Part shown: positions 21,485 through 27,400 of the stretch, one piece after another
Layout of the letters: each line of letters begins with the position of its first letter
Position numbering within the stretch: position 1 is the stretch's first letter
Assembly: GCA_026929865.2 (NCBI GenBank)
Contig: CM049396.1
Coordinates: 22,820,001-22,884,000 of the forward strand
Source of the DNA: Hyperoplus lanceolatus
Lineage: Eukaryota; Chordata; Actinopteri; Uranoscopiformes; Ammodytidae
Direction of reading: 5' to 3'
Length of the DNA: 64,000 nucleotides
Made by a program: the position numbers and the translations under genes
The notes under the pieces: model-generated
What the model saw: only the letters and a program-made list of their open reading frames with translations
Told to the model about the DNA's origin: nothing
The model's database searches: none

Positions 21485-24400
21485 CTGGAGATACAAAAGA
21501 AACACCCACTTACTCCATTGAACAATGACACATTTCAAAGAATTCTAAGTAGTCATGGTCAATATAATAATGGCACATGCAGGTTTTAACAATGAATTTC
21601 CCTTGAAAATGTGCTGTGTGCTCTGGGGTTTGAGGCTAAAACTGCATAATGCAAACATTGTGCTAAATTAGGATTTTACTTGGCTGTTATTTTAAAAATG
21701 TGTATTTAATGTTTATTTACACAGGGACAAGTGTGTAGCATACACCAATGCCACAGCATATATAGCCTAGGCTAATTTGCAATGCCTGTGCATCCCTAGC
21801 TGAGCCTTTAAGAATGAACTGAGCAACAAAACACAGGAGATAACACAAATGAAACAGTACAGCTTTCAAACAATGAATACAAAAAACAAAAAAACATCAA
21901 ACAAAACAAACAAACAGAACAGGTACATGACTGATTCATCTTCAGAACAAATGTCAGTTTCAGTTTAAGATGATAAAAGTCAGGATCCAATCTGAATTCT
22001 GTTGTTAGTGAATTCCAGATGTTAATTCCCTTGACTGATGTGGCTTTTGGTCCAAATCAGGTTTAGCATAAGAGCACCTGACAATTCCCACTGGTTGCTC
22101 CACGTGTTACTGAGCCTGATGTTCTGAGTGGAACAACAAGGTCACTGAGCACCTGGGGAGCCTTATTATTTAGGCATTTATGGATCACTTTAAGATTGTC
22201 AAATTTAATAAAATCATCAAAACTTAACATATTTAATTTCTTTAGAACATGGCAATGATGTGCTTTTATTGGTTTCCTGTCCAGAACTTTAATTGTCAAT
22301 TGTTCTAGATGTTGCTTGTGACCAAGAGGTTACAGAGTAACTGTGAGAAAATCATAGCATGTACCAAGCTGTTTGCAGCATGAAATGACTCTGAGACAGT
22401 CTCTGCTCATTCTGAACGTGTGTAAGTTTGCTTTTGCAACCCTGCTCACCATTTTAACATGTTTTTCAAATTGTAGGTGTGATCTAAGATTAGGCGGAGG
22501 AATTTTACCTATGAGACCACCTGTTCAATAGGTTGTCTGTTAATCTTTAGATCTAACTCATTAGCTTCGGTTGAAAAGCAGACTGACAGTTGTCTTGACA
22601 TTCAGGGTAAGGTGTGATTTTTCAAACCATGCTGCTGCGGATTATTTGACATGACAGCTGTGTAGAAGTTTTACCAGACACATGTATAACTGCTTCACCA
22701 GCATACATTTTAAAACCTGCTCAAACACATGAATATGGCAAGTCATTAATATATAAACTAAAAAGAAGCGGACCAAGAACAGAACCCTGTGGTACTCCCG
22801 TTTTAGTTTTGAGAAGAGATGACCTCTCATTGATGACAGCGACACATTTTTCTCGTCAGACAGAACTGAAATGTATTATTCAGCTTTTGAATTTCTCAAC
22901 TCTGTAGTAACGCAATTTCTTAGTCTTTTATATTTTGCCATGTCAATAATTAAATAGCTTTTATTTGTAGTTAATAGGGGGTGGAAAGTTTCCGGTAAAT
23001 TTCCGGAAACTTTCCACGGGAACTTTCGCTCGGAAATTTTGGGAATATTCAAAATTGGGAATTATAGGAATAAACTAAATGGAGGTCATTTAAATGATTT
23101 TTTTTTCATATCCAAACATAAATCTAAACATATAAACACTATATTTTGTCATAGGCAGACAGACATCCATGCAAACTAATAAAATTAAAAAACATTACAT
23201 TTAAACAGATTTATTTGTAAGTAGAACTTTATCAAGTTTTGATTATTTTATGAACAATCAATAATTTCACTGAAAACAAAAAGATGAATGTTGTATAAAA
23301 TATAACATCTTTTTGACCCCACCCATTCAATAAATGAAGTAGATTGCCCCCCATGTGATGGAGGAATGCACAGTGCATGTAGGGGGCGTGGCCTCAGTAT
23401 CCCTGCAGTAAGCAGTGTGTGCAACCTGCCAAGCTTACTTGAATGAAAATCTGGCATGAAATCTGGTTGTTTTAAGTCAACATTATGCTAAAATATATTT
23501 TCTAAAACTATATTTAAAATCACTGTTTAAGCCTCTGTAAACCTGGGGCCTCATTTATAAAGGTGTGCGTAGAAACCTTCCCAACTCCAGCAAAGACACC
23601 TGAGGCAGCAGATGGGAGGAGAGCTGCTATTACAACCACTGACACACGTGATGTGTGTGATGTGCAGGTTTAAAAAGGAGGAGTCAGTGATTCTGGAGGA
23701 GAACGTTTGTTGTCAAAATCGCTTGCCGTCAACATCAGTGAATATCTCCTCACGATATGCTACCTGTCCGTACTGTGTTCGCTAAAAGAACATCTGGTGT
23801 TAATACACAGCCAAATGGTTATGTAAACAAAAAGGGGCCTACCACAACTACCAACATGAGGAAAAAAGGGAGGCAACCGGCCACAAAGAAAGCGACTGGG
23901 AAGGAAGAAAGCCTGTGACACACAAACAAACACACCCGGGCGCTTATCACATATCATGATTGGCACAGTTGTTATAGTCTTTGTAAAGCAGTTTCGCCCA
24001 ACTTTGTACTGTATAAAATATCACGTATTTGCGTGCCTGTAGTAGCCTACTATATGTAGGCCTATATAAAATATGTTGTCACAAGTGAAATAATGCCAAT
24101 AGTCTATTCCAGAGCATTGTTTCCCTTCCGTGAGATCCACACATTTCCAACAACGCCAGATTATAGTTTAATCTTCCAGGGAGAATTGTTATGGGAAAGA
24201 GATGCATGTAGACTAATAATTAGCTAAATTCACAACATGATTGTATCTAAAATATAAAGTTTAAATTAATATTTGTTGGCCTTAACTTTGTAAAAACTAC
24301 TTTTACACAGCGCCTAAAAGAAAGACTCTTTGCTTTCGCACTGGCCACTCACGGACACAACTCCCGACGTATATGATATTATTATAGAGTAGTTCTATAA

Positions 24401-27400
24401 GATTCAATTTATAAAATATAACCAAAACATGTAGACCTACTTGATAAGTAATTCAATCTACATCACAACTGCATGCCATAGACTACAGTAGCCTATATTC
24501 ACAACTTAGGTAAGGTAATAGGTAAGCTTATACATTTTAATGACTAAATATATTGGGTGCCAAGCATTTCACAGTCATTTGTCTGTGTTTTTCCAATGAC
24601 TGCAGCTTTATTTCGTGGTGTTGCCGTTGAGTGTCGCTGATTCCCCGAGCCTGGAAAACCTTGCGGGAGCTCTACGCATGGTCGAAAGTTGTCGTGGGAA
24701 TACGCACACTTCTCTCGCAAATAATTTATTTATAAATACCACCGGTTTGTCACCGCACGTTTGACCGCAAATTTCTGCCATCTACGCAAGGTTTTTGTGC
24801 GCAGCAAGCTTTATAAAATGAGGCCCCTGGTCTAGTAAAAATCAATGTATGATATCAAGTTGGGTTTCTTAATAGGCTTTAAAAAATCTTATTTGAAAAT
24901 TAAAGGCCTACTTCACCGGTTTGAATATGAAGGTGTATTGAATTCTGAGATCCTATGTAGTATAAATGTGCGAAAAAAATTTAAATCGGTTCATCCTAGC
25001 CTGAGAAAAGGCAGAAAGAGTGTTTTTTTTAACCCTATATTTCTCTTTCTGTGATGTCACGAGAAAGAGAAATATAGGGTTAAAAAAAACACTCTTTCTG
25101 CCTTTTCTCAGGCTAGGATGAACCGATTTTTTTTTTTTGTTGCACATTTATACTACATAGGATCTCAGAATTCAATACACCTTCATATTCAAACCGGTGA
25201 AGTAGGCCTTTAAATGTTCAAAAATATTTTAGTACTTAGTTGAAAAAACTGCTTTTTACTGTCTAGAACGTTTGCCAGGACTGAAATAACATAGTTAGAA
25301 TGACTTAGTGCATTTGGGTTGCTTTAAATTGAGTAAATTCCCGCTTATTCCCGTTAATTCCCGTTAATTCCCATAAATTCCTGTTAATTCTCATGGAAAG
25401 TTTCCAACTTTGAAAATTCCCGGAATTTTGCAACCTTGGTAGTTAGTAGAGCCAGATCACGCAGTTTAATAAGTTTTCGGACAGACTCAGTTACCCAAGG
25501 CAAAGACATTTTTCTGTTCAAAGGCTTACGACTTTAGAAACATGCCAATAATGCCTCAACCTTATTCATAAATTCATCACAGCATTGTACATCATTTGTA
25601 TCTATAACACTGCCCCTTTGCAGTCTATTTAGTTCACCCTCCAGAATTGGCAAGTCAGGTTTTAGAATAGTTGCTGCATGAGTTTGAGTGACTGAGGTTA
25701 TATAAAGGTAAAGCTCCTTAGAAGCTAAAATATGGCACAAGGTCAATGTGACCTCACAATATGTAAGGTTGCAGTGACCTTTGACTTCCAAAATCTATTC
25801 AGTTGAGTCAGTCGACATTTGTGCAAACTTTGAAGAAAATCCCTCAAAGCATTCTTGAGATATTGCATTCACAATAAGCAAGTCGGTGAAATGTAGTACT
25901 ATTAGCTGGTTTAGCAAGACTCCAACTCAAAATTAGCATTGGAATGTTTGTGTAAATGTTGAAGGTCAGTTAATGCTAATATGTGATTAAAAAGCAGCAT
26001 TGGCCTGACATCATGGGTTACATCAAATTCATATGAAAATGCTGCCAAAATGCAGTGAAGATATGATCACTAAAATTGAGTATGTTTTGAATGCAAATAT
26101 TAAACACAGAAATATACTGTAAACAAGGTAAATGGTCAATGAATAAAGAAAAATCATATGTCACAAAACAACGTGTTGAGATACAGGTGTGATATGAATG
26201 TAGTGTAGAGGCTACCTGGTGGGAATACACAGAGGGACTGTATCCATGTGGACTCTTCATAGGGGAAGCCATGGAAGCTGCTTGCATCTCATATTGATCT
26301 GCATCTGAAAACACAGAAACAATTGATCAGCTTTATTCAAGAGACTAGAGGTCCATTCAAAAGACATACAACATACATGTTAAAGGAGACAATTACTACT
26401 ATTATTTGTCCTCTTCTGCAGTTGCTCAACTTGCAGAAAACTGGCTTGAGACATGAAACTTGGACAAGCTGTGCAAATGTACCACACAAATATACTATAA
26501 ATAAAAATGCTTCATTTGCAAAACAGGCCCACAAACAACGTAAAGTTAAAGGTTTGAACCAGGAATCACAGCTTGTATACCAGTTTTATTAGATATGTTC
26601 TTGTCTTTGATATCAGAGTTTTGTTTTTATCAACCCATTTTCTCTCAGTGTGTAATGTCCGTACCAGTGTCCTTCTCCATAGAGCCTTCACTCCTCCTGT
26701 GAACGCGCTCCTTCTTGATACTTCTCAACACTCGCTCCAGAACCCCCTGACCTTCTCTTAGACGTTCAACAGTAGTGGGAACCATCCTAGGAAAAATACA
26801 CAACCAACAGGTTATTTCCCACAAACCTCTGATCAGGAACAGACCCTTGAGGAGAAACACTGCAGGAAAAAAGCACTGGTTTGTTTATTTTTGTCCATTT
26901 TGCTTCTATAAATGAATATAAGCTGTATCGAAAAATCACCAATCCGTTGTAAAAATAAAAATAAAGATTTTACGTCTGGCTTTATCCAACATATAGATTT
27001 TTGGTTTTTAAAGAGATGCTAATTTACGCATTATTAGTAAGATAGGCCAAATTTGCATATTTATTCAAAAATTTCTTATGTGTAATACAAAAACTAAGGC
27101 ATGACTTATAAAGTGTAGTGAAAGGTGTGATAAATGCAGTCACCACTGGTTGTTGCTGTCCTGGCGTCTGGCCTGGTTGTCTGGTGGGCTAACCTCCTCT
27201 ATCTGTGTGATGGAGGTGGAGGTGTGTGCTGAGGAGAAGGAGCAGCTCTGTGGGGAGGCTGGGAGCTGCAGTTGGTGCTGGGGCTCCTGGCTGTAGTGAG
27301 AGCCCAGCCGGGTGGGGGTTCCTCCCAGAGACAAGCTGCTGCCCATGGGCTCACAGTCACGCCCGCTGCCCTGCTTCCTCTTACGGTACTCCAGCAAAGA

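Follow-up and report, generated by a model that had tools for sequence, protein, structure and literature searches.

A setd5 splice-acceptor fragment inside an intronic DNA transposon is most likely a scar of templated repair

We analysed a stretch of 64,000 nt of the Hyperoplus lanceolatus genome (assembly GCA_026929865.2, contig CM049396.1, positions 22,820,001-22,884,000, forward strand), hereafter the window, whose coordinates are used throughout. A gene whose coding strand is the minus strand of the window was recognised by its SET-domain exon, for which the top PDB match was KMT2E, the paralogue of SETD5 (E 2.5e-23), and by a Pfam SET match in one stretch, the five other stretches submitted giving no Pfam match. 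We take this gene to be SETD5 rather than KMT2E. Reading of the frames and splice sites placed a transposon within the intron preceding the last coding exon of setd5, and inside this transposon lies a copy of a piece of the gene itself. The exon that supplied it starts at 27403, directly after ...CTGCCTCAG, which ends in a CAG acceptor. The features of the locus are as follows:

23545..24827, plus strand: non-autonomous DNA transposon copy of about 1.3 kb (the focal element), with termini GGGCCTCATTTATAA and TTTATAAAATGAGGCCC and CTG at both flanks
23545..23584, plus strand: left terminal region of the focal element, family-derived according to the family comparison, ending at the left junction, where 1 bp (A) overlaps
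23584..23858, minus strand: copied setd5 segment, from the alignment to the donor, comprising part of a MITE, the intron end, the AG acceptor and 16 coding bases
23854..23858, no strand: ACATG microhomology at the right junction, common to donor 27652-27656 and the native transposon
23859..24827, plus strand: family-native transposon body and right end, from the family comparison
27388..27656, minus strand: donor in setd5, comprising 16 exon bases (27388-27403), the 3' splice site, the intron end and the left part of the MITE
27472..27778, no strand: entire foldback MITE of the donor intron, a predicted DNA hairpin with many copies elsewhere in the genome
5665..6967, minus strand: sister transposon copy, from the window self-search and the family comparison, with 252 native bp where the focal element has the setd5 piece

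We examined the family to which the carrier belongs by a search of the genome, in which the best 40 of 3,487 first-look candidates were scored and 66 matches were listed. The comparison covered 41 copies (39 fetched copies, the focal element and the sister), and the flanking triplets were taken as the three bases outside GGGCC...GGCCC. Both ends could be read in 17 of these copies, and 14 of the 17 are flanked by identical CWG triplets, CTG/CTG in the focal copy and CAG/CAG in the sister, the exceptions being L030, L031 and L040. Harbinger elements are described as usually making a 3-bp target duplication and having TIRs of 25-50 bp (PMC9179366). The carrier is likely PIF/Harbinger-like, a label that we keep at this strength because the aligned inverted part of its ends spans only 18 bp. 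As a literature search found no paper on a PIF-Harbinger element combining CWG with a target site duplication, we leave the subgroup unnamed. At 5600-5700, the sister seems to have inserted right against the end of a further copy, whose terminus is of the same type (GAGGCCCCTGGGGCCTC), an arrangement as if a CWG at the end of an element had been the sister's target. Elsewhere in the window, on the minus strand at 51367-52505, open stretches resemble by eye a decayed Tc1/mariner transposase.

The preliminary description of this locus had proposed that 23584-23858 duplicates setd5 27388-27656, and the search of the window bore this out, with 95.3% identity over 275 columns (E 5e-125). Compared column by column, copy and donor differ by one 6-bp gap, as described, and by seven substitutions in 269 sites instead of the six or so that had been counted. 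The description was also right that the copy holds an intron end, the AG acceptor and 16 coding bases, which correspond to donor positions 27403-27388. The two segments lie in the same orientation, and the spacing of 3.8 kb given earlier holds from start to start, the distance from edge to edge being 3.5 kb. The position of the copy just inside the left transposon end was likewise correct; what it replaces is 252 bp of the sister (sister positions 41-292), not about 270 bp. Since the two copies differ by seven substitutions and an indel, we rejected a duplication created by the assembly.

We looked for the setd5 piece in the other members of the family, and none of the 40 (39 fetched copies and the sister) carries it on either strand. 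It had been suggested that finding the segment as native sequence in the family would overturn the capture reading; the family comparison came out negative on this point, and the piece as native family sequence is rejected. The native 252-bp stretch is retained over at least 100 bp in 32 of the 40 copies and over at least 200 bp in 26, with less than 100 bp left in eight. In a tree of the transposon body only (31 sequences, namely the focal element, the sister and 29 of the 39 fetched copies, 10 having been dropped for coverage or length), the focal element clusters with L024 and L025 with a local support of 1.0. The nearest relative, L024, retains 200 of the 252 native bp, and in L025, when read in its longer locus L003, the 252 bp are complete apart from being split by a later 1.2-kb insertion. 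As both keep the native stretch, the native state is older than the copy. L003 has no visible left transposon end and so is uninformative on the left junction.

In the genome, the whole segment was found at two places only, among the best 40 of 2,746 and the best 40 of 4,327 first-look hits, and the non-repeat intron end with the exon bases was likewise found at only two places among the same 40 scored candidates per search. The MITE part on its own is repetitive, with matches of 64-93% identity elsewhere. Hence, neither the scored candidates nor the 40 family copies gave any sign that the setd5 piece has spread. The foldback MITE is complete in the donor; in the copy, just the left part of it is present, cut at the loop. 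Judged from these sequences, the transfer went from setd5 to the transposon, since the MITE is whole in the donor and partial in the copy, coding bases were copied and none of the 40 other family members carries the piece.

We also looked for other inserts of at least 50 bp and found four among the 39 fetched copies (L057, L059, L061 and L062), none of which matched elsewhere in its own short locus; this look was limited to the fetched stretches, in which donors lying outside are invisible, and therefore gives no estimate of a rate. In L059, L061 and L062, the flanking family pieces share 7-13 positions, the pattern expected of nested insertions. The 378-bp insert of L057 (1225-1604, at sister position 1054-1056) has flanks without overlap and may itself have been templated. 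L025 contains a fifth, visible only in the longer locus L003 (295-1492, at sister position ~284-287); this 1.2-kb insertion, in a copy closely related to the focal element, has flanks overlapping by four bases, as expected of a nested insertion.

The junctions of the copied segment were then compared with the native and donor sequences. At the right junction, the native transposon reads ...TGACATGAGG, the donor ...CAACATGCCC and the copy ...CAACATGAGG, with the 5 bp ACATG in common. The native word at this point, ACATGAGG, is found in 29 of the 40 other family copies, and L024 reads GACATGATG, which also contains ACATG. Under a simple equal-base model, by our own arithmetic, an overlap of at least 5 bp would arise by chance with a probability of ~0.005. 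At the left junction, the sequences are CCTTCCCAAATC in L024, GGTACTCC in the donor and CCTTCCCAACTCC in the copy, with a single base in common. Neither junction needs filler, and no poly-A was found at either edge of the copy. The longest word common to the native and donor sequences measures 7 bp in same-strand and 8 bp in opposite-strand comparison, and ordinary homologous gene conversion was rejected as unlikely because of this lack of shared homology.

The proximal template, its same orientation, the microhomology and the loss of target sequence point to a break or fork stall within the transposon that was then repaired. We consider it highly probable that the transposon inserted first and was later mended in place from the setd5 template 3.5 kb away. 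The PIF/Harbinger-like non-autonomous element would have entered the intron that precedes the final coding exon of setd5, with a CTG as its target, and would later have suffered a double-strand break or a replication stall, whose repair replaced ~252 bp adjoining its left end by ~270 bp copied from setd5. Most likely, the broken end on the right (3' end ...CATGT) would first have paired with ACATG of the donor MITE, synthesis would then have run from the MITE through the intron end into the 16 exon bases, and the new end would finally have been joined to the left side with a 1-bp overlap. Priming at the MITE is placed first and joining on the left last because the right-hand 3' end is complementary to the donor ACATG. 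Synthesis-dependent strand annealing, polymerase-theta end joining or microhomology template switching could each have been the pathway. Of the two readings offered by the preliminary description, template-switch repair is thus favoured by the near donor, the microhomology, the native loss and the lack of a further whole copy among the scored candidates, and Pack-MULE-like capture is disfavoured by the absence of the piece from all 40 other family copies.

We next considered the age of the copy. The copy-donor distance is 0.0265 (seven differences), divided between two lineages, and the terminal branch of the focal element in the body tree is 0.025. On these distances, the copying would be younger than the divergence from the closest relatives sampled, seven events being few. 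At the four differing sites that lie inside the MITE, a comparison with 26 MITE loci, some of which lack a base at some sites, showed the deviating base to lie in the copy at three sites and in the donor at one. That insertion preceded copying is suggested by the closeness of the donor to the carrier and by the lack of other copies, the dates being compatible with either order.

The failure of the dates to put insertion first leaves some room for a Pack-TYPE capture, in which the setd5 piece was picked up during transposition, by gap repair or the merging of neighbouring copies, and the element became a gene-carrying mobile element. The piece does lie between intact ends with CTG at both flanks, and PIF elements are described as making Pack-TYPEs in plants (PMC8903248). 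However, no second piece-bearing copy was found among the scored candidates or the 40 family copies, and capture before insertion would require the element to have landed by chance, or hopped locally, within 3.5 kb of the donor, so that we regard this explanation as distinctly unlikely. It would be very unlikely, in our judgement, that two independent events took place, the transposon first losing an internal piece by ordinary deletion and then receiving an unrelated templated insertion at the scar or close to it. Some family copies are indeed internally deleted nearby (L024 lacks most of sister 65-116, and L041 lacks 84-166), but a single repair accounts for both the deletion and the insertion, an argument of parsimony only. 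A reverse transfer, in which the segment passed from the transposon to setd5, is rejected and keeps virtually no probability, as the segment contains setd5 coding bases and a splice acceptor, the MITE is complete in the donor and cut at its loop in the copy, the segment is absent from all 40 other family members, and we found no point in its favour.

Returning to repair in place, we asked about the structure of the donor at the priming site. Folded as DNA, the MITE has a predicted energy of -85.1 kcal/mol, against a mean of -31.3 for shuffled sequences (z -13.4). The predicted main terminal loop, of 19 nt, is closed by 27636 and 27656, and a second loop, of 7 nt, lies at 27578-27586. The inner breakpoint, or priming site (ACATG, 27652-27656), thus falls at the edge of the predicted main loop, a place at which the DNA could be accessible as a single strand. 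Since terminal-loop bases make up ~26 of 309 positions, such a fit would arise by chance about once in 12 (our own arithmetic), and the position at the loop edge is no strong evidence. Priming of the repair within the single-stranded loop of the MITE hairpin, to which the broken transposon end would have annealed via ACATG, may be entertained as a rather doubtful refinement, resting on the predicted fold. If loop priming were general, templated repair would draw preferentially on intronic foldback MITEs, which would disperse adjacent splice sites within genes. Beside the transposon lies a long inverted repeat pair (24883-25000 and 25112-25230, 92.5% identical), which has further matches at 39503-39575 and 39685-39735 and looks like another foldback MITE family.

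The copied splice acceptor is intact in sequence, in agreement with the earlier claim that the fragment retains a 3' splice site in the sense of setd5. In a conceptual frame, joining the exon ending at ~26225 to this acceptor, at 23599, would give 14 residues and then a stop, and an AATAAA lies at 23215. The apparent repair scar has put a copy of the gene's own splice acceptor into a later intron, inside a transposon, and offers a clearly readable case of such an event.

We finally compared the locus with known systems. Templated sequence insertion polymorphisms (PMC5110952) are likewise templated insertions, with a distant region as the template according to that account, whereas the template is proximal here. 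Pack-TYPE elements are described as capturing and shuffling coding DNA (PMC8903248). As in a Pack-TYPE or Pack-MULE element, a piece of a host gene lies between transposon ends with a target duplication. Unlike in these, there is no sign among the scored candidates and the 40 copies that the piece has moved or amplified, the scar is in one copy, and the donor is the very gene that houses the element. Gene fragments can, on this reading, enter transposons without capture by the transposon, which calls for caution in counting Pack-TYPE elements from single copies.

The closest likeness is to the repair-mediated duplications of Pace, Sen, Batzer and Feschotte (2009; PMC2671141), who describe 824 probable cases from transposons of the human genome, the donor lying within 5 kb, and 80 cases from zebrafish. 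Their reported lengths average 162 bp with a maximum of 619 bp, and their breakpoints carry microhomology of 2-9 nt, deletions of 1-15 nt (Table 1) or filler, with no poly-A. Donors that were partial exon/intron pieces are given for 4 of the 824 human cases, and in ACSBG2 a repair-mediated duplication put a duplicated exon into an intron of its own gene. As in these cases, a transposon of a known family is interrupted here by at least 50 bp foreign to the family, the donor is on the same chromosome and within 5 kb (3.5 kb), and the insert is below the 619-bp maximum, with one other whole copy among the best 40 scored candidates per search. Microhomology in the range of 2-9 nt is present at one junction (5 bp; 1 bp at the other) without poly-A, and a partial exon/intron donor has put a piece of the gene's own exon into an intron. 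The present case, read from one fish genome, differs in that its donor is partly repetitive (a MITE) and in that ~252 bp of the transposon were lost, compared to the 1-15 nt of their Table 1. Their filter required the two transposon pieces to be at most 30 bp apart in consensus coordinates, so that the ~252-bp gap keeps this case from being a member as written, though it works alike, and a screen that tolerates no more than 30 bp of target deletion, as the 2009 one did, misses events of this kind. In summary, the setd5 fragment in this transposon is most likely a scar of the repair-mediated-duplication type, and not the work of a gene-stealing transposon.
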